From Gammaproteobacteria bacterium BRH_c0 (GTDB taxonomy: Bacteria > Pseudomonadota > Gammaproteobacteria > Pseudomonadales > Porticoccaceae), in NCBI GenBank assembly GCA_000961645.1, contig LADM01000133.1:1-64000 (forward strand): a stretch of 64,000 nucleotides of DNA. Direction: 5' to 3'. Shown here piece after piece: positions 2,451 to 11,148 of the stretch (position 1 is the stretch's first letter; each line of letters starts with the position of its first letter). Position numbers and translations under genes: made by a program. The notes beneath the pieces were generated by a model that did no database searches, was not told where the DNA came from, and saw only the letters and a program-made list of their open reading frames with translations.

Positions 2451-3626
2451 ATGCTGCTGAGTTTTTTTGAAGGCCTGCGCAAGGCGGGCGTACCCGCAAC
2501 CCTGCAGGAGTTGCTGACCCTGATCTCTGCCATGGAGGAGCACCTGGCCTTTGCCAGCGTGGATGACTTTTACCTGCTGGCGCGCACCTGCATGGTCAAG
2601 GACGAAAAATACTACGACCGCTTTGACCGCGCTTTCGCCCTCTATTTCAAGGAACTGGAAAGTCTGGATGACTTTCTCGAAATGCTGATCCCCGAGGACT
2701 GGCTGCGGGAGGAATTTCGCAAGAGCCTCACCGATGAAGAAAAAGCCCAGATCGAAACACTGGGCGGCCTGGAAAAGCTGATCGAGGAATTCAAAAAGCG
2801 CCTGGATGAGCAAAAAGCCAAACACAAGGGCGGCAATAAGTGGGTAGGCACTGGCGGTTCTTCACCCTTTGGCAATGCGGGCTACCACCCTGAAGGCATC
2901 CGCGTCGGCGGCGAGAGCGAACAAAAGCGCGCCGCCAAAGTGTGGGAGCAGCGCGAGTACAAAAACCTCGACGACAGCGTCGAGCTGGGCACCCGCAATA
3001 TCAAGGTTGCCCTGCGGCGCCTGCGCCAGTTTGCCCGCACGGGCGCCGCTGACCAACTGGATATTGATGACACCATCAAGTCCACTGCCAAGAACGCTGG
3101 GCTGCTTGATATCAAGATGGTGCCGGAGCGGCACAACGCTGTAAAAGTGCTGATTTTTTTCGACGTGGGTGGCTCCATGGACACCTATGTGCGCACCTGC
3201 GAAGAGCTATTTTCCGCCGTGCGCACCGAGTTCAAGCACATGGAGTATTACTACTTTCACAACATGCTCTACGACTATGTGTGGCGCGACAATCACCTGC
3301 GCCATCAGGAACGTCTCAACACCTGGGATGTGCTCCACACCTACGGCTCGGACTACAAGGTGATTGTGGTGGGGGATGCCTCCATGTCGCCCTTTGAGAT
3401 CACCACCCCGGGCGGCAGCGTCGATTATTTCAACGAAGAGCCCGGCGCGGTGTGGATGCAGCGCCTTACCAATACCTACGAAAAGCTGGTGTGGCTCAAT
3501 CCCGTCAAGGAAAATTTCTGGGAGTACACCGCGTCGATCCGCCTGGTGAACCAGCTGGTGGCCAACCGCATGTACCCCCTGACCCTCGGCGGTCTTGAAG
3601 AGGCCATGAAGTACCTGTCACGGTAA
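2451..3626 (+). CDS. VWA domain protein, CoxE-like
   Basis: 391-residue protein with an N-terminal helical region and a C-terminal von Willebrand factor A domain, typical of CoxE-like partners of MoxR ATPases. The metal-site motif appears as FFDVGGSMD, where the classical form is DxSxS, so one serine is a glycine. This may be normal for the subfamily. A later VVVGDASMSPFEI segment fits the second half of the fold. Residues around 105-150 are lysine- and glycine-rich (KKRLDEQKAKHKGG). The start codon abuts the MoxR stop. In other systems such pairs assemble or activate protein complexes or metal centres; the client here is unknown. No signal peptide or membrane segment is visible. Confidence 0.85.
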   Translation: MLLSFFEGLRKAGVPATLQELLTLISAMEEHLAFASVDDFYLLARTCMVKDEKYYDRFDRAFALYFKELESLDDFLEMLIPEDWLREEFRKSLTDEEKAQIETLGGLEKLIEEFKKRLDEQKAKHKGGNKWVGTGGSSPFGNAGYHPEGIRVGGESEQKRAAKVWEQREYKNLDDSVELGTRNIKVALRRLRQFARTGAADQLDIDDTIKSTAKNAGLLDIKMVPERHNAVKVLIFFDVGGSMDTYVRTCEELFSAVRTEFKHMEYYYFHNMLYDYVWRDNHLRHQERLNTWDVLHTYGSDYKVIVVGDASMSPFEITTPGGSVDYFNEEPGAVWMQRLTNTYEKLVWLNPVKENFWEYTASIRLVNQLVANRMYPLTLGGLEEAMKYLSR

Positions 3627-3634
3627 ATGATGCC

Positions 3635-6600
3635 ATGACAGACGCGCGCAACAACCAATCCCGACATGCCCATTCCAGGAATAACCAGTCCCGCCACAAA
3701 CAGCCGAAAAATAACCGGCCCCGGCCCCGGCCCGACGCCGCCACAGAAGCCCTGTGGAACGACTGCCTGATAGAAGACCGGAAAGCATTTCGCAGCCAAT
3801 GGCAGGGCATCGAAGCGCGCCGCCGCCAGGGCAAGCCGGTTGATCAGAGCCTGGCCAAGCTGGATGCGGCGATCCAGCGCTCACGCCTGCGGGTGGAACA
3901 GCGCCGCCAGGCAGTGCCGGACATTACCTACCCCGACGACCTGCCCATTGCGCAAAAGCGCGAGGATATTATCGCCGCCCTCAACAGTTCCCAGGTGATC
4001 GTGGTGGCGGGAGAGACCGGCTCCGGCAAAACCACTCAGCTGCCGAAAATCTGCCTCGAGCTGGGTCGCGGTGTGACCGGCATGATCGGCCACACCCAGC
4101 CACGCCGAATTGCCGCCCGCACCGTGGCCCAGCGTATTGCCGAGGAGTTGCACACCACCCTCGGCGACAAGGTGGGCTACCAGGTGCGCTTTAACGAGCA
4201 GGTGGGTGAGAACAGTCATATCAAGCTGATGACCGATGGCATTTTGCTGGCGGAAATCCAGCATGACCGCTACCTGACCCGCTACGACACCCTGATCATC
4301 GACGAGGCCCACGAGCGCAGCCTCAATATTGATTTTCTGTTGGGCTATATCAAGCAGATCCTGCCCAAACGGCCTGATCTGAAAGTGATCATTACCTCCG
4401 CCACCATCGACCTGGAGCGCTTTTCAACGCATTTCGACAATGCCCCCATCGTCGAGGTGTCGGGACGCACCTATCCGGTGGAAGTGCTCTACCGCCCGCC
4501 GTTGGAGGCCGATGAAGATATCTATGGCGCCATTGTCAGTGCGGTGGAAGAACTGATGGCACTGCCGAAGCGCGGCGATATCCTGGTGTTTTTGAGCGGC
4601 GAGCGGGAAATCCGCGAGACCGCCAACGTGCTGCGCCGCGCCCAGCTGCGCGATACCGAAATTCTGCCCCTCTATGCTCGCCTCAGCCTCAACGATCAGA
4701 CCCGGGTGTTCCAGCCCCACAGGGGGCTGCGTATTATCCTCGCCACCAATGTGGCGGAAACCTCCATCACTGTGCCGGGTATCCGCTATGTGATCGACAC
4801 CGGCTACGCCCGTATCAGCCGTTACAGTTATCGCACCAAGGTGCAGCGCCTGCCGGTGGAGCCGATCTCCCAGGCCAGCGCCAACCAGCGCGCCGGGCGC
4901 TGTGGCCGGGTCAGCGATGGCGTCTGTGTGCGGCTGTACAGTGAGGAGGATTATCACAGCCGTCCGGGCTTTACCGACCCGGAGATCGTGCGCACCAATC
5001 TCGCCTCGGTGATTTTGCAGATGCTGCGTATGCGCATCGGCGATGTGCGGGATTTCCCCTTTGTCGACGCGCCGGATTCACGCCTGATCAGCGACGGTTT
5101 CCAGCTGCTGGGCGAACTGGGCGCGGTCAACGGCAAGGGCGAGTTGACGCCGCTGGGTATCCAGCTCAGCGGTTTGCCCCTCGATCCGCGCCTCGGGCGC
5201 ATGCTGCTGGCGGCCAGCAACGAAGGCGCACTGCGGGAAATGCTGGTGATCACCTCGGCCCTGAGTATCCAGGACCCGCGCGAGCGTCCCGCCGACAAAC
5301 GCCAGGCGGCGGATGAAAAACACCGCCAGTGGCAGGACAAGGATTCGGATTTCCAGTCGCTGCTGAATCTGTGGAACCATTTTGAGGAGCAGCGCCAGGC
5401 GCTTTCTCGCGGCAAGTTCAGCCAGTACTGTCACAGCCATTTTGTCTCCTACCTGCGTATGCGCGAATGGCGCGACTTGGAACACCAGTTGCGCCTTGCT
5501 GCCCGTCAGCTCAAGTTGCGCGACAATTCTCAACCTGCGGCCTACGACGCCATTCACCGATCACTGCTCAGCGGCCTGTTGAGCCATATTGGCTTTCGCC
5601 AGGACGAGCGGGAATTTCTCGGCGCCCGCAATCGCAAGTTCCATATCTTTCCCGGTTCCGGGCTGTTCAAAAAGCCGCCCAAATGGGTGATGGCGGCGGA
5701 GATGATCGAAACCACGCGGCTCTACGCCCACCAGGCGGCGCGTATCGACCCTGACTGGCTGCCCGCCCTGGCCGGTCATCTGGTGCGCAAAAGCCATCTC
5801 GAACCCTATTACGATGCGCGGCGCGGCCAGGTGATGGCCTATGAGAAGCAGACCCTTTTTGGCCTGACGATTCTCGATCGCAAGCCGGTGGCCTTCAGCC
5901 ATATCGACCCGGTGATCGCCCGGCAGATTTTTATCCAGGGCGCCCTGGTGGAAAACCGCTACAGGGGCAAGGGGCCTTTTGCCCGTCACAACCAGCAATT
6001 GCTCAAGGAGCTGGAAGGCCTGGAAGACCGCCTGCGGCGCCGCGATATTGTTATCGACGACAGCGCCATCTACCGCTTCTATGACGAGCGGGTGCCCGCC
6101 CATATCAACGGTCTGACCAGCTTTGAAACCTGGCGCAAGGAACAGGAACGGGACAATCCACGCCTGTTGTATCTGGATCGCGCCACCGTACTCGACAGCG
6201 CCGATGTGCATGAAGCGGAGGAGCAGTTCCCCAAAACGGTCCATTGGCAGGGTACGGATTATCGTCTCAGTTACCGCTTTGAGCCGGGGCATGTGAACGA
6301 CGGTGTCAGCGTGCATATCCCGGCGCCGCTGATTCACCAGGTCCCCGCCCACCTGTTCGAGTGGCTGGTGCCGGGGCTGTTGCGGGACAAATGCATCGCC
6401 CTGGTGAAAGCCCTGCCCAAGCAGCTGCGCAAGCAATTTGTACCGGTGCCGGACTATGTGGACAAGGCCCTGAGCACCATGATTCCCGACAATCGTCCGC
6501 TCGGCGTGGTGCTCGGCGAACATCTCAAAAAGCACACCGCCGTGGCCATCCCTCCCGATGCCTGGCGGGAGGACAGTCTTGAACCGTTCTACCGTATCAG

Positions 6601-7597
6601 CTATCTGCTGGAGGACGATAACCGACAGCTAGTGGATCAGGGAAAGGATCTGGCCGCCCTCAAGGACGGGCACCGCGAAACGGTGCAAAGCGCCATTCGC
6701 GAGGGCAGTGGCAGCGTCGAGGAACAAACAGGGCTGACGCGCTGGAACTTCGGGCGCCTCGAACAAAAGGCCAGGGTGAAAAAGGGCAAGCTGGAGATTG
6801 AGGCGTTCCCGGCGCTGGTGGACGAAGGCCAGAGCGTAGCCCTGCAACTGTTTGATAATGCCGCTGAAGCAGCCAGGGCATCCATTCACGGCGTAGTGCG
6901 GTTGCTGGAGCTGCATCATCCGGAGCCTGCCCGCTACCTGCGCAAGCAGCTGTTGAAAGGCCGCGAACTGGCGATTGTCGGGGCCGGCATCACCGACCTG
7001 GCACAGCTGCGGGAAGATATGATCGCCAGCGCCTACCGTCTGGCGTGCCTGGATGGCAAGCCGCTGCCTGGCAACGAGGCGGAGTTCAAGCAGTGTCTGG
7101 AGCAGGGCAGGGGGCAGATTGTCAGTCAGGCTCAGGCTCTGGAACAGGTGGTGGTCGCACTCTTTGAACCCTTGAAGGGCATCCGCGCCCTGCTCAAGCA
7201 GTACGGCACTCGCTTTGAGCCCTCGACACAAGATGTCAGCCAGCAGCTCGACTACCTGTTGCGACCGGGTTTTGTGTTCGATACATCGGGCTACTGGCTG
7301 CAGCAATACCCGCGCTACCTGAAAGCAGTCCTGGCCAGGCTGGAGAAGTTGCCGGGCCAGCCGGAACGGGATGCCGCCTTTGCCGCCGAAACCGCACAGC
7401 AGCTGGCACAGTGGCGCCAGCTCGCCAGCGGCAGCAAGGCCATTTCCCCTGAATGTGGGCAGGAACTGGAAAAATGCCGTTTTATGATCGAGGAGTACCG
7501 GGTATCGTTTTTTGCCCAGGTACTGAAAACGGTGTTGCCTGTCTCCCCCAAGCGCATTGATGCCCAGCTGGACAAAATAAAAGCGCTGTTGCCATAA
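3635..7597 (+). CDS. hrpA: ATP-dependent RNA helicase HrpA
   Basis: 1320-residue DEAH-box RNA helicase, the usual length for bacterial HrpA, which in E. coli acts in mRNA processing and ribosome rescue. Visible motifs: Walker A GETGSGKTTQLPK, motif Ia TQPRRIAAR, DEAH box DEAHERSLNIDFLLG, motif III SATID, motif V TNVAETSITVPG and motif VI QRAGRCGR. The long helicase-associated, OB-fold and HrpA-specific C-terminal regions follow. The first 35 residues are basic and contain RNNQSRH twice, an imperfect duplication that looks like a disordered RNA-binding tail. The start lies eight bases after the VWA stop, so it may share that transcript. Confidence 0.96.
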   Translation: MTDARNNQSRHAHSRNNQSRHKQPKNNRPRPRPDAATEALWNDCLIEDRKAFRSQWQGIEARRRQGKPVDQSLAKLDAAIQRSRLRVEQRRQAVPDITYPDDLPIAQKREDIIAALNSSQVIVVAGETGSGKTTQLPKICLELGRGVTGMIGHTQPRRIAARTVAQRIAEELHTTLGDKVGYQVRFNEQVGENSHIKLMTDGILLAEIQHDRYLTRYDTLIIDEAHERSLNIDFLLGYIKQILPKRPDLKVIITSATIDLERFSTHFDNAPIVEVSGRTYPVEVLYRPPLEADEDIYGAIVSAVEELMALPKRGDILVFLSGEREIRETANVLRRAQLRDTEILPLYARLSLNDQTRVFQPHRGLRIILATNVAETSITVPGIRYVIDTGYARISRYSYRTKVQRLPVEPISQASANQRAGRCGRVSDGVCVRLYSEEDYHSRPGFTDPEIVRTNLASVILQMLRMRIGDVRDFPFVDAPDSRLISDGFQLLGELGAVNGKGELTPLGIQLSGLPLDPRLGRMLLAASNEGALREMLVITSALSIQDPRERPADKRQAADEKHRQWQDKDSDFQSLLNLWNHFEEQRQALSRGKFSQYCHSHFVSYLRMREWRDLEHQLRLAARQLKLRDNSQPAAYDAIHRSLLSGLLSHIGFRQDEREFLGARNRKFHIFPGSGLFKKPPKWVMAAEMIETTRLYAHQAARIDPDWLPALAGHLVRKSHLEPYYDARRGQVMAYEKQTLFGLTILDRKPVAFSHIDPVIARQIFIQGALVENRYRGKGPFARHNQQLLKELEGLEDRLRRRDIVIDDSAIYRFYDERVPAHINGLTSFETWRKEQERDNPRLLYLDRATVLDSADVHEAEEQFPKTVHWQGTDYRLSYRFEPGHVNDGVSVHIPAPLIHQVPAHLFEWLVPGLLRDKCIALVKALPKQLRKQFVPVPDYVDKALSTMIPDNRPLGVVLGEHLKKHTAVAIPPDAWREDSLEPFYRISYLLEDDNRQLVDQGKDLAALKDGHRETVQSAIREGSGSVEEQTGLTRWNFGRLEQKARVKKGKLEIEAFPALVDEGQSVALQLFDNAAEAARASIHGVVRLLELHHPEPARYLRKQLLKGRELAIVGAGITDLAQLREDMIASAYRLACLDGKPLPGNEAEFKQCLEQGRGQIVSQAQALEQVVVALFEPLKGIRALLKQYGTRFEPSTQDVSQQLDYLLRPGFVFDTSGYWLQQYPRYLKAVLARLEKLPGQPERDAAFAAETAQQLAQWRQLASGSKAISPECGQELEKCRFMIEEYRVSFFAQVLKTVLPVSPKRIDAQLDKIKALLP

Positions 7598-7714
7598 GCC
7601 GTTTATTACTGGCATGGCAGAAACTAACCTGAGACAGGAATGTCACACAAGGCTGTAATAATGCGCGCATTGGCGCGACCAACCACTGACACCATCCACC
7701 ACGAGGTTATCTCC

Positions 7715-8098
7715 ATGTCCAAACAGGCTTTCAAACCCCTTGCTTCTGCCGCAGGCGCGGCCTTTGTCGCTTCTCTGGCGATGTCTTCACTGGCTCTTGC
7801 GGCTGAAAATCCTTTCCAGGCATCTGAGCTGTCCAGCGGCTATCAAGTGGCCCAGGCGGAAAAGGATGGCGAGGGCAAATGTGGTGAGGGCAAGTGTGGC
7901 GAAGGCAAGTGTGGCGAAGGCATGGGTGCCGAGGGTGATGCCAAGGCCGCATGCGAAGGCAAGTGTGGTGAAGGTAAATGTGGCGAAGAGAAGTGTTCTG
8001 AGCATGGAGATAAGGCCCGGGGCGAGGGCAAATGTGGCGAGGGCAAGTGCGGGGCAGACGAAGCAAACGCTAGCCCTGCTGATCACAGCGGCCATTGA
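7715..8098 (+). CDS. hvfA: HvfA/BufA-type Cys-rich RiPP precursor (oxazolin/bufferin class)
   Basis: 127-residue exported low-complexity protein. An N-terminal signal peptide (basic start, hydrophobic core about residues 8-28, cleavage probably near ALAA-ENPF) is followed by nine cysteines at 56, 61, 66, 80, 84, 89, 94, 107 and 112. Seven of them sit in exact EGKCG repeats and one in EEKCS; the tail is His-containing (DHSGH). In the HvfA/bufferin family, EGKCG cysteines are converted to thiooxazole-type heterocycles by the MNIO enzyme and partner encoded next door, giving copper-binding peptides secreted to the periplasm. The ATG at 7715 follows GAGG at 7703-7706 and gives a normal signal peptide; an in-frame start at 7640 would spoil it. 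Modification and copper binding are inferred from the family. Confidence 0.9.
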   Translation: MSKQAFKPLASAAGAAFVASLAMSSLALAAENPFQASELSSGYQVAQAEKDGEGKCGEGKCGEGKCGEGMGAEGDAKAACEGKCGEGKCGEEKCSEHGDKARGEGKCGEGKCGADEANASPADHSGH

Positions 8099-8112
8099 TC
8101 AGGGGCCGCTGA

Positions 8113-8988
8113 GTGAACAAACACTATCCCGTTAATGGCGCGGGCCTGGGGCTGCGCCGTTCCCTGCTGGAGCCGTTGCGGGATCTTGATGCCGATGCCG
8201 TGGATTTTATGGAAGTGGCGCCGGAGAACTGGATCGGTCTTGGCGGCAGGCTGGGCAAGCAGTTTCGCGCCTATACCGAGCGCTACCCCTTCGTCTGCCA
8301 CGGCCTGTCCCTTTCCATCGGTTCTGCCGATCCCCTCGACTGGTCGCTGCTCGCGGATATCCGCGATTTTATCCGCGAGCACAATATCCGCTGTTTTTCC
8401 GAGCACCTGAGTTATTGCAGTGACCATGGCCATCTCTACGATCTGATGCCGATTCCATTTACGGAGGAGGCTGCCCGGTACACGGCAGACCGCATCTGCC
8501 AGGTACAGGACTTTCTCGGCCAGCGCATCGCTCTGGAAAATGTCTCTTACTATGCGGCGCCACAGCAGCAAATGCGCGAGATAGACTTCCTCAATGCAGT
8601 GCTTGAAGAGTCGGATTGCCTGTTGCTGCTCGACGTCAACAATATCCACGTTAACAGCGTCAACCATCGCTATGATCCTGTGGAGTTTCTTCATGCCCTG
8701 CCTGGGCACCGCATTGCCTATGCCCACGTTGCCGGGCATTTCAACGAGGCCGAAGACCTGTTGGTGGATACTCACGGTTCAGCCGTGATCGACCCGGTAT
8801 GGGCTTTGCTTGACGAGGCCTACCGCCATTTCGGGGTGCTGCCAACATTGCTTGAGCGGGATTTTAATATCCCGCCACTGGTGGAACTGCTGGCGGAGGT
8901 CAGCCATATTCAGACTCTGCAGCAGGCCCACTTGCCATCCCCTCCGTCGCGACGGGGTGACACCTTTGCCGGGTTGATGCGGCGCTGA
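8113..8988 (+). CDS. hvfB: DUF692/MNIO family multinuclear iron oxidase, HvfB
   Basis: 291-residue TIM-barrel enzyme of the DUF692 (MNIO) family, related to MbnB of methanobactin synthesis, expected to oxidise precursor cysteines in the cytoplasm. Expected metal-ligand motifs are all present: His63 (CHGLSLS), Glu97/His98 (EHLSY), Glu142 (ALENVSYY), Asp174 to His179 (DVNNIH), His205 and His209 (AHVAGH), the DTHGS motif near 219, and Glu248/Asp250 (ERDFNIP). The start is GTG at 8113 behind AGGGG at 8101-8105. It lies 14 bases after the precursor gene, an arrangement that links enzyme and substrate. The last 25 residues look disordered. Confidence 0.92.
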   Translation: MNKHYPVNGAGLGLRRSLLEPLRDLDADAVDFMEVAPENWIGLGGRLGKQFRAYTERYPFVCHGLSLSIGSADPLDWSLLADIRDFIREHNIRCFSEHLSYCSDHGHLYDLMPIPFTEEAARYTADRICQVQDFLGQRIALENVSYYAAPQQQMREIDFLNAVLEESDCLLLLDVNNIHVNSVNHRYDPVEFLHALPGHRIAYAHVAGHFNEAEDLLVDTHGSAVIDPVWALLDEAYRHFGVLPTLLERDFNIPPLVELLAEVSHIQTLQQAHLPSPPSRRGDTFAGLMRR

Positions 8989-9004
8989 TGGTGCAGGACA
9001 GCTG

Positions 9005-9769
9005 ATGGTACAGGGCAGTCCGCCAAAGGATTTCCAGCGCACCCAGCAAGCTTTTGCCGACCATTTGCGCGATCCAGACCGTTCCCTGGCTCCCGCTGGT
9101 ATCGAGGCGCGACGGATGGCCATCTACCGCGATCTTGTCTACAACAATATCGAATCGTTTCTCGCCAAGGGTTTCCCGGTATTGCGCGCCATCACCGATG
9201 ATCAGCGCTGGCACGCCATGGCCCGCGATTTTGTTCGCCGCCACGTGTGCCAGAGCCCGTACTTTCTGGATATCGGCAAGGAGTTTCTTGCCTATCTGGA
9301 GCACGAAAGGGTGGATGTTGCCGGTGACGTGCCTTTTCTGCTGGAATTGGCCCATTACGAGTGGGTGGAACTGGCGCTGGATATTGCCACGGCCAGCGTG
9401 CCTGATGGCCCGTTAACCGCTGGCAATTTTCTCGACCATTATTTCCAGGTGTCTCCCCTGGCCTGGAGTCTCTCCTATCACTATCCCGTGCACCGCATTT
9501 GTGCAGATTTTCAACCCGCCGAGCCGCCGGATAAGCTGACTTTTCTGGTGGTCTATCGCAACCGGGAAGACAGGGTGCGGTTTCTGGAAATCAACGCGGT
9601 AACAGCCCGACTCCTGCAATTGCTGGAAGAGGGTGATTGCAGTGGGCTGGAGGTTCTCACCCTGCTTTCCTCCGAGCTGGGTTACAGTGATTCACGGCAC
9701 CTTGTACAGTCTGGTGAAGCGCTTTTGCAAAAATTGTTTGGCCTGTCGATTATCTATCTGGCGGAGTAG
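9005..9769 (+). CDS. hvfC: DUF2063 partner protein, HvfC
   Basis: 254-residue protein with the DUF2063 N-terminal fold (FQRTQQAFADHLRDP, then IYRDLVYNNIESFLAKGFPVLRAI). This is the usual partner of DUF692 enzymes and is thought to bind the precursor leader and present the cysteines to the MNIO active site, as MbnC does for MbnB. The C-terminal half carries a LTFLVVYRNREDRVRFLEIN segment typical of HvfC proteins in Gammaproteobacteria. It starts 16 bases after hvfB with AGGA at 8995-8998, so hvfA-hvfB-hvfC form one operon. No DoxX-type membrane gene or ECF sigma gene follows, unlike several related loci. Little more can be read from sequence. Confidence 0.9.
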   Translation: MVQGSPPKDFQRTQQAFADHLRDPDRSLAPAGIEARRMAIYRDLVYNNIESFLAKGFPVLRAITDDQRWHAMARDFVRRHVCQSPYFLDIGKEFLAYLEHERVDVAGDVPFLLELAHYEWVELALDIATASVPDGPLTAGNFLDHYFQVSPLAWSLSYHYPVHRICADFQPAEPPDKLTFLVVYRNREDRVRFLEINAVTARLLQLLEEGDCSGLEVLTLLSSELGYSDSRHLVQSGEALLQKLFGLSIIYLAE

Positions 9770-9797
9770 TCTCTTTTCGCCTCCAACCTCGCCCTAA

Positions 9798-9868
9798 CTG
9801 TCATCTGTGCGTCACAAGAAAGTCATTCCTCCGTCATTTAAATGTCATGACTGTCATCTTTTTGTCAC
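9798..9868 (+). promoter_or_regulatory. PhoB-box array upstream of the porin
   Basis: Seven GTCAT/GTCAC half-sites face the same way at 9798, 9809, 9820, 9831, 9842, 9851 and 9862. Spacing is 11 bp except for one 9-bp step. The classic Pho box is two CTGTCAT repeats at 11-bp spacing, with PhoB dimers binding in tandem. CTGTCAT itself occurs at 9798 and 9851. The last half-site would replace the -35 element, with the -10 near 9879-9885. This predicts strong phosphate-starvation induction of the porin. Confidence 0.85.
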
Positions 9869-9951
9869 AATCTTCTTCGATGATTCTCCCGGTGTTGGTC
9901 ACAGGCCAAACATTCAGCTCACAGACTTTATCCACACAAAGGGGAACACTG

Positions 9952-11148
9952 ATGAAAAAAGCTGCCATTGCACTCGCGATTGGATCTATTTGTGCCGGAG
10001 CTGTTCAGGCGGGTACTGTCACTTCAGACGGTGCTGATATTGTGCTCAAGACAAAAGGTGGCTTTGAAGCGGCAACCACAGATGGTGACTACTCTTTCAA
10101 GTTGGGTGGCCGTATTCAGGCTGACTACAACAATTACGATGGCGTGATCAATGCTGTCCCCGGTGAGGATGGCAGCGATTTCTTTTTCCGCCGCGCACGT
10201 CTGGAGATTAAGGGCCACGCCAAGGATTGGGGCTATGAGATGTCCTACAACCTCACCGGCAGTGGCTCCATCGACCAGTTGCACACCACCTACATGGGCT
10301 GGGGCAAAATGGCCAATCTGACGGTCGGTCAGCAGAAAGAAAACTTTGGCATGGATGATACCGGCAGCTCAAAGTGGACTTCCGCGATTGAGCGTGCGAT
10401 GCCTGCCAATGCCTTCGATACTGGCAACAATCTGGGCGTCAAGCTGCACGGCGCCAACAACCTGGTCACCTACAGCGTCGGCGCCTACAAAACCGCCATT
10501 GACTCTGACAACGATCTGGACACGGCCCTGACTGGTCGCTTGGTGGTACGCCCGCTGATGGATGGTGCCAACCTGATTCACCTGGGCGCCGGTATCACTG
10601 ATCGCAGCGGTGTTGCCGCTGACTACAACTCCCGTCTGGGCGCCCGTGGCGGCGAGGATGGCACCGGTGTCAGTCGTGTCCGCGCGCGTATTTCAAATGC
10701 TCTGGGAGATCGTCGCGACTACAACCTGGAAGCCGCTGCGAATTTTGGCCCCCTGCATGTGATGGCTGAATACTTCAATGGCGAAACCGATGTGGACAAT
10801 ACCTCCTACACCATTGAAGCCGATGGTTACTATCTGCAAGCAGGCTGGATCATCACTGGCGAAAGTCGCGGCTACAAGACTGATATCGCAGCATTCGATG
10901 GAGTCAAGCCCGCTGGTTCCGGCGGTGCCTGGGAGCTGATTGCCCGTTTTGATGCCCTTGATGTGGCCAATTCTGCCCCAATCTCCGTGACCGGTGAGAA
11001 GGCCGACAGCATCACCGTTGGCGTCAACTGGTATATGAACTCTCTGGTCAAGCTGTCGATGAACTATGTCAACGTCAGTACCGACCAGCCAATTGGTGGT
11101 GAAGACGATGGTGATGCCCTGGTGGCTCGCCTCCAGATCGCATTCTGA
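9952..11148 (+). CDS. OprP/OprO-type phosphate-selective porin
   Basis: 398-residue outer-membrane beta-barrel of the OprO/OprP family. A clear signal peptide (MKKAAIALAIGSICAGAVQA) precedes the barrel. Visible family features are KLGGRIQADYNNYD, the FFFRRARLEIKGHAKDWGYEM strand pair, the VGQQKENFGMDD loop, and a C-terminal strand ending in phenylalanine (LVARLQIAF). These porins form trimers that pass phosphate or polyphosphate into the periplasm during starvation. The PhoB array upstream supports that role here. The ATG at 9952 follows AAGGGG; the frame extends upstream to 9847, but that would run through the promoter. A strong terminator follows. Specificity for phosphate versus pyrophosphate cannot be told. 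Confidence 0.9.
   Translation: MKKAAIALAIGSICAGAVQAGTVTSDGADIVLKTKGGFEAATTDGDYSFKLGGRIQADYNNYDGVINAVPGEDGSDFFFRRARLEIKGHAKDWGYEMSYNLTGSGSIDQLHTTYMGWGKMANLTVGQQKENFGMDDTGSSKWTSAIERAMPANAFDTGNNLGVKLHGANNLVTYSVGAYKTAIDSDNDLDTALTGRLVVRPLMDGANLIHLGAGITDRSGVAADYNSRLGARGGEDGTGVSRVRARISNALGDRRDYNLEAAANFGPLHVMAEYFNGETDVDNTSYTIEADGYYLQAGWIITGESRGYKTDIAAFDGVKPAGSGGAWELIARFDALDVANSAPISVTGEKADSITVGVNWYMNSLVKLSMNYVNVSTDQPIGGEDDGDALVARLQIAF

Follow-up and report, generated by a model that had tools for sequence, protein, structure and literature searches.

Introduction

Captophorins are among the largest classes of ribosomally synthesized and post-translationally modified peptides (RiPPs), and the type built on EGKCG motifs is already characterized in oxazolin, fontiphorin, gonophorin and bulbicupramide. 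The FonBC pair of Fontimonas thermophila installs seven 5-thiooxazoles (PMC13097082). In Haemophilus influenzae, the multinuclear non-heme iron-dependent oxidative enzyme (MNIO) HvfB requires HvfC, the signal peptide is leader-like and the mixed-valent di-iron state is active (PMC13419390), while the homologous operon depends on the extracytoplasmic function (ECF) sigma factor RpoE2, which is held by the 67-aa zinc-binding anti-sigma (ZAS) protein HrsE, and is induced by hypochlorous acid (HOCl) (PMC7907618). The homologous operon recurs in every Microbulbifer strain studied; its precursor MmrA is described as having five to eight EGKCG cysteines (PMC12538549). Here we describe the hvfABC operon of Gammaproteobacteria bacterium BRH_c0 (Porticoccaceae), which lies in a stretch of 64,000 nucleotides analyzed as a whole and called the window below (contig LADM01000133.1, positions 1 to 64,000 of the forward strand).

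The hvfABC genes form a genuine three-gene operon, an ordinary new member of a known and widespread family. Taken as a whole, with the chemistry, Cu(I) binding and promoter included, the locus is best explained as a captophorin operon of the EGKCG/oxazolin type (probability roughly 0.88). Gene identity, motifs, specificity residues and promoter conservation are established in the present analysis. The features are as follows.

7620..7644, + strand: ECF-type promoter, -35 GAAACT (7620-7625), 16-base spacer, -10 core GTC (7642-7644); by motif conservation
7715..8098, + strand: hvfA, precursor peptide, 127 aa, 9 Cys, ATG start; by NCBIfam and sequence
7715..7801, + strand: likely Sec signal peptide, residues 1-29, cut near LALA-AENPF; hydrophobic stretch, by eye
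7808..7843, + strand: conserved leader motif NPF...LSSGY, residues 32-43; xPF..GY in 85 of 93 precursors
7871..8053, + strand: core with seven EGKCG units and EEKCS, residues 53-113; by sequence
7952..7954, + strand: Cys80, outside the KCG motif and followed by Glu, predicted unmodified; the sole Cys-Glu among 716 Cys
7985..7999, + strand: EEKCS unit, modification doubtful; the sole KCS among 93 precursors
8113..8988, + strand: hvfB, MNIO (DUF692/PF05114) maturase, 291 aa, GTG start; by NCBIfam, residues and tree
9005..9769, + strand: hvfC, PME1 partner (DUF2063 and NGO1945_C domains), 254 aa, ATG start; by NCBIfam, PF09836 and PF22106

Identity of the Maturation Enzymes

The first-pass annotation of this DNA had proposed three closely spaced genes, the second coding for a DUF692 enzyme with all expected metal ligands and the third for a DUF2063 protein. 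The open reading frame (ORF) coordinates agree with this layout, leaving gaps of 14 bases between hvfA and hvfB and of 16 bases between hvfB and hvfC. HvfB scored 437.7 bits with the NCBIfam HvfB-family MNIO model (cut-off 360) and 348.4 with PF05114, and the DUF2063 assignment was confirmed by the match of HvfC to the NCBIfam HvfC model NF050145 (312.6 bits, cut-off 142) and by its Pfam domains PF09836 (DUF2063) and PF22106 (NGO1945_C). Among solved structures, HvfB came nearest by sequence to 3BWW (E=7.5e-75), and HvfC to 3DEE (E=1.6e-14). In the host genome (3.5 Mb in 140 contigs, 93.7% complete) HvfB was the sole PF05114 match and HvfC the sole PF09836 match.

Relatives were collected from 58 searched genomes, including the host itself, 43 of which had an MNIO match, and from further HvfB loci of public genomes, taken as the best 80 among the matches listed. 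After removal of seven repeats from 111 HvfB loci, 104 distinct loci were retained, which provided 93 precursors with a leader and 90 upstream regions (three had no usable start). The nearest named relatives include Porticoccaceae, Cellvibrionaceae and Microbulbifer.

The His, Asp, Glu and Asn positions examined were invariant across the 104 HvfB-like ORFs, except for E97 (Asp in one), so the metal ligands claimed earlier are present and each is kept in 103 or 104 of the 104 sequences; N177, D219 and H221 are the motif-based equivalents of N175, D242 and H244 at site 3 of HvfB (PMC13419390). The window HvfB also has R15, R16, D250 and F251, as in MNIOs of the Lys-Cys type. We took R16 and F251 as the equivalents of FonB Arg16 and Phe250, which mark the Lys-Cys class (PMC13097082); they were found in 103 and 102 of the 104 ORFs, respectively, and the 15 second-copy MNIOs of the relatives mostly differ there. 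In a tree of 71 enzymes with bootstrap values that had not settled and several long branches, a 100/100 branch divided the HvfB clade from 14 of these 15 second copies (L122 groups with HvfB). The window HvfB paired with a same-genus enzyme (support 97/86) and fell in the HvfB clade, not in the bufferin clade. The family, the enzyme class and the expected thiooxazole chemistry named in the first-pass annotation are thus supported by the family models, the tree and the specificity residues. An MNIO of the methanobactin MbnB type was rejected (TIGR04159, 35.2 against a cut-off of 325). As a separate observation, the MNIO ORFs of L120 and L121 were lengthened at the C-terminal end to 587-589 aa by a long extension, and the first part of L121 passed the model of the bufferin maturase BufB.

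Precursor Peptide and Its Relatives

The nine cysteines of HvfA occupy positions 56, 61, 66, 80, 84, 89, 94, 107 and 112. EGKCG units begin at residues 53, 58, 63, 81, 86, 104 and 109 and the EEKCS unit at 91, with the KC runs grouped 3+3+2, which matches the earlier description of a signal-peptide-bearing 127-residue protein with seven EGKCG and one EEKCS, the signal peptide being recognized by eye. The protein passed the NCBIfam HvfA-family domain NF050137 (45.5 bits, cut-off 19.5), and a Pfam scan of it gave no match, hence no DUF2282. Each of the seven EGKCG units has a different DNA spelling, a sign that selection acts on the peptide, and recent tandem copying of the repeats is not supported.

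A leader-bearing Cys-repeat ORF was located upstream in 93 of the 104 distinct HvfB loci, and in five more a Cys-repeat ORF was masked or truncated at a contig end; another five had no such ORF (one of them cut by a contig end) and the match at L087 is probably spurious. No recognizable Cys-repeat precursor was seen in the available stretch upstream of the HvfB gene in L023, L045, L048 and L103. The precursor of L074 lies 2.4 kb from hvfB; other credible precursors end no more than about 330 bases from the start of the HvfB match. Two side observations concern the precursor types: L098 and L099 code for HvfA-type precursors with an EF-hand-like insert separating the EGKCG groups, an EGKCG/EF-hand fusion type being described in PMC12452194, and in L044, L060, L078, L086 and L106, located beside HvfB-type enzymes, many units read EGSCG or EGNCG in place of EGKCG.

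In the 93 precursors, the window one included, 609 of 716 cysteines stand within EGKCG, and the residue after Cys is Gly in 702 cases, Ala in nine, Ser in two and Glu, Asp and Thr in one each. The single Cys-Glu (Cys80) and the single KCS both belong to the window HvfA. The first-pass annotation had regarded the 3+3+2 arrangement as specific to this precursor: it is indeed unrepeated among the 93, but the number and grouping of repeats vary freely in the family (4 to 17 Cys per precursor), so that 3+3+2 represents ordinary variation and gives no sign of a special function.

In a panel of FonBC double variants, turnover was lost with any replacement other than Ala of the residue that follows Cys, and FonBC did not process natural motifs in which this residue is charged; a single case of modification at Cys-Tyr (LVHCY) runs counter to a strict rule (PMC13097082). 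By this specificity seven sites would be expected in HvfA, with EEKCS doubtful and Cys80 unlikely. HvfA is therefore likely to carry seven modified sites, at its EGKCG units; the earlier estimate of up to eight was optimistic, since it counted the doubtful EEKCS.

ECF-Type Promoter and Proposed Mechanism

The sequence GAAACT-N16-GTC, which we take to be a promoter type of ECF sigma factors, was found in 41 of the 90 hvfA upstream regions, that of the window included. Any other GAAACT-GTC spacing from 8 to 26 occurred in at most five of the 90 regions; the motif was absent from all 90 control stretches located 400-660 bases into the operon, and 50 shuffles gave a mean of 0.08 matches, with a highest value of 1. 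A weight matrix built from the 40 other loci gave the window site (7618-7648) a score of 18.5, compared to 10.3 for the runner-up among 127,940 window positions. In a subset of 75 upstream regions the motif was present in 33 and a stricter form in 24, against a shuffle mean of 0.1. No sigma-70-like promoter was detected in 7500-10000 (1.2 expected in shuffles). The fixed-spacing promoter suggests that hvfA may be under envelope-stress control, as in Haemophilus, and because the element is readable in 41 of 90 loci, the natural trigger is directly testable in this lineage. The only other strict match in the genome, at L258:2541 (C136:47042), scored 11.1 with the first matrix; a sigma gene, weakly TIGR02943-like, lies some 470 bases away.

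In the proposed mechanism, the RiPP recognition element domain of HvfC would bind HvfA by its N-terminal part, made up of the signal peptide and NPF...SGY leader, and present it to HvfB. The latter, as an MNIO with a putative mixed-valent di-iron centre, would remove four hydrogens per EGKCG cysteine, each of which would be joined to the carbonyl of the preceding Lys to give a 5-thiooxazole. The modified peptide would be exported by Sec and then bind Cu(I) in the periplasm; its expected mass shift is about -28 Da for seven sites, or possibly -32 Da with an eighth at EEKCS, with Cys80 presumably free. Transcription would probably be started at 7620 by an ECF sigma factor, with envelope oxidative or thiol stress rather than copper itself as the probable trigger. 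The chemistry, the Cu(I) binding, the need for HvfC and the sigma control known from Haemophilus are carried over to this scheme from papers on homologues. That the chemistry and regulation of the homologues hold in the host organism, which sigma factor acts and what role the peptide has in vivo are points that we infer, while copper sequestration in vivo and copper-induced transcription of the window operon are assumptions.

Second Precursor Locus Lacking Its Own Enzymes

The host genome has two EGKCG precursors for its one MNIO and one DUF2063 protein. The second, hvfA2, is located on another contig (C133:3522-3857) and codes for 111 aa with six EGKCG and an HvfA-family domain (76.9, cut-off 19.5). 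It is followed by hvfX (144.6, cut-off 80), the two genes together spanning 3522-4463, and by arsS (442.8, cut-off 300). Then come the gene of a large protein, MerA-like in its C-terminal part but short of that cut-off (377, cut-off 454), and the genes of two glycosyltransferases of arsenosugar type (265.1, cut-off 182, and 197.6, cut-off 134). Divergent from hvfA2 is an ECF sigma gene (TIGR02943, 247.8 against a cut-off of 162.2), whose product is the only protein of the genome above this cut-off, together with ArsM-like and ArsC-like genes, both below cut-offs. By eye, a small protein in this divergent group, beside the sigma factor, has the ZAS pattern C-X25-H-X3-C-X2-C (pattern as given in PMC7907618). 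No MNIO was found at this locus. The stretch between the sigma gene and hvfA2 has no site of the GAAACT-N16-GTC type (best matrix score -3.2, against 18.5 in the window), so that a single promoter type for both precursor genes is unsupported and a shared regulon unproven.

The matching locus of the sister species has the sigma gene, an anti-sigma-like ORF, hvfX (66% identity) and arsS, but no precursor, and its sigma/hvfX stretch has no promoter site (best score 0.2). Both loci are located near a gene which we take to be recA. In three genomes from another genus of the same family (G015, G024 and G032) a precursor has a partial DoxX-like match as its neighbour (E between about 5e-10 and 7e-10), together with an ECF-like sigma match; these orphan precursors (L187, L188 and L189) are on a different contig from hvfABC or far from it, and their loci have no promoter site either (best score 1.1). 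Two of the three genomes have one MNIO match each and G024 has two. Enzyme-less precursors thus occur in at least four of the 58 genomes; in G008, G036 and G039 the repeats are on two contigs, at contig ends, and may be one split gene.

Within the available flanks, an HvfX-like match was located near hvfB in eight of the 111 HvfB loci. ArsS was found in 26 of the 58 genomes, with an adjacent HvfX-like match only in the host and its sister (flanks of about 1.5 kb per side, some cut). Of 369 genomes searched within the class, 21 matched HvfX, the host included, and 21 HvfX loci from them had no ArsS within their flanks. Adjacency of hvfX and arsS as a general rule was rejected.

The single HvfBC pair may serve both HvfA and the product of hvfA2. 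A wider reading would have the captophorin system of this genus split and stress-controlled: HvfBC would modify HvfA and also, in trans, HvfA2, the HvfA2 locus carrying hvfX and a sigma/ZAS pair of the RpoE2/HrsE kind, and the role would be in envelope thiol stress, possibly linked to arsenic, and not in copper alone. We propose it tentatively, with the odds clearly against it. The string "arsen" has no occurrence in the main text of PMC12452194, and among the papers listed by a text search (20 of 46) none joined arsenosugar genes with MNIO/bufferin systems. Precursors away from MNIO genes are noted in PMC12452194, where modification from another locus is offered as one possibility, and the enzyme-less second precursor provides a test case for it.

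Weighing of Alternative Explanations

Several observations weigh against the captophorin reading with its stress-type promoter. HvfA stays below the narrow HvfA equivalog NF050188 (51 bits, cut-off 95), so that what is claimed is family membership and not equivalence to HvfA in the narrow sense of NCBIfam. The hvfX gene, which belongs to the operon in Haemophilus and Neisseria, does not adjoin hvfABC here. The promoter motif is missing from 49 of the 90 upstream regions, including those of the sister species (L019) and of all ten Microbulbifer loci (one of the ten genomes being assigned by an HvfB identical to that of a named Microbulbifer). The ECF sigma gene on C133 has no site of this type in its own upstream region, so that the sigma factor for the 7620 promoter is not pinned to that locus. 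Finally, the 3.5-Mb genome has two strict matches to the pattern, against 15 for a reversed control; since the control is the commoner, genome-wide counts prove nothing and the case for the promoter rests on position and spacing. For Microbulbifer, the authors of PMC12538549 were hesitant to assign a role in copper protection.

The best surviving alternative, which we consider possible at well below even odds, is that the peptide serves mainly as a thiol or oxidant sink in an envelope stress response (to hypochlorite and the like), with copper binding secondary. The ECF-type promoter before hvfA is in its favour, although we know of no oxidant-scavenging assay of such a peptide (no search was made). 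It would also fit the RpoE2-dependent, HOCl-induced operon of H. influenzae (PMC7907618) and the Microbulbifer homologue, unseen under copper (PMC12538549), though the loci of the latter have no promoter motif. On the other hand, purified relatives bind Cu(I), and thiooxazole pathways elsewhere are induced by excess copper or gold as well as by oxidative stress (PMC13097082).

It is very unlikely that the precursor remains unmodified or partly modified and acts as an ordinary Cys-rich protein that binds metal or buffers redox state: two of the nine HvfA cysteines stand in unusual contexts and the Microbulbifer proteins escaped detection in the conditions tried, whether copper was added or not (PMC12538549), but EGKCG is kept beside an intact enzyme pair and the Microbulbifer precursor was modified at all six cysteines on co-expression (PMC12538549). 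Least credible is a bufferin (Buf1/Buf2) system proper, with a BufB-like enzyme and a bufferin precursor, which has the MNIO mega-cluster, the partner type and the thiooxazole chemistry in common with the window (PMC12452194, PMC13097082), whereas HvfB reached only 264.8 with the BufB model (cut-off 310) despite exceeding the HvfB cut-off, is placed by the tree in the other clade and has the R16 and F251 of Lys-Cys MNIOs in place of the residues of most second copies, eight of ten of which pass BufB when scanned (two pass neither model, L122 being nearer HvfB and L123 nearer BufB), and HvfA lacks DUF2282. General NCBIfam and Pfam scans of HvfA turned up no Buf2 (6/12-Cys) family, no search by that profile having been made.

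Genomic Neighbourhood

The order hrpA-hvfABC-mlaA-rssB is common to many relatives. Among 86 loci examined, one sister genome being counted twice, hrpA was present in 32, mlaA in 34 and rssB in 26 (lower bounds, as the flanks were limited). With this context hvfABC looks like an old chromosomal resident of the group. The downstream porin gene was rejected as a member of the operon: Pho-box-like repeats, recognized by eye, lie in an upstream region of its own, and a porin match was found in five of the 86 loci; the sister genome accounts for two of these, and in one the orientation is opposite. The repeats (CTGTCAT/TTGTCAC, window 9798-9872) precede the OprO/OprP-type porin gene at 9952 and suggest that the porin might be under phosphate control. 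A terminator search gave a single match, within hvfB, fewer than the shuffle mean of 2.3.

Comparison with Known Systems

Among the closest described systems is mmrABC/bulbicupramide of Microbulbifer (PMC12538549), from the same order of bacteria, which has the same A-B-C gene set, a varying number of EGKCG and a conserved leader; the Microbulbifer loci also share the hrpA/mlaA/rssB neighbourhood with the window. In contrast to mmrABC, the window HvfA has nine cysteines in 3+3+2 runs with EEKCS and the lone Cys80, and its gene has the ECF-type promoter that all ten Microbulbifer loci examined lack. The fonABC/fontiphorin system of Fontimonas thermophila is likewise a minimal ABC cluster with seven EGKCG-type sites, and its specificity residues recur in the window HvfB (Arg15, Arg16, Asp and Phe; PMC13097082). 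Compared to FonA as known from its description, the window precursor has two extra atypical cysteines.

With hvfABCX/oxazolin of H. influenzae (PMC13419390) the window operon has in common a signal-peptide EGKCG precursor, HvfB and HvfC, and the ECF sigma control of the H. influenzae operon (PMC7907618) has its likeness in the ECF-type promoter of the window. However, hvfX of the host is on another contig, beside the second precursor, and HvfA misses the narrow HvfA equivalog. The bufferins Buf1 (DUF2282) and Buf2 also combine an MNIO and a PME1 partner with a signal peptide and copper-binding thiooxazoles (PMC12452194), but differ from the window in precursor family and MNIO clade. The window operon is already explained by a well-studied family; newer are the conserved stress-type promoter and the split precursor arrangement, which are of lasting value, both being testable.

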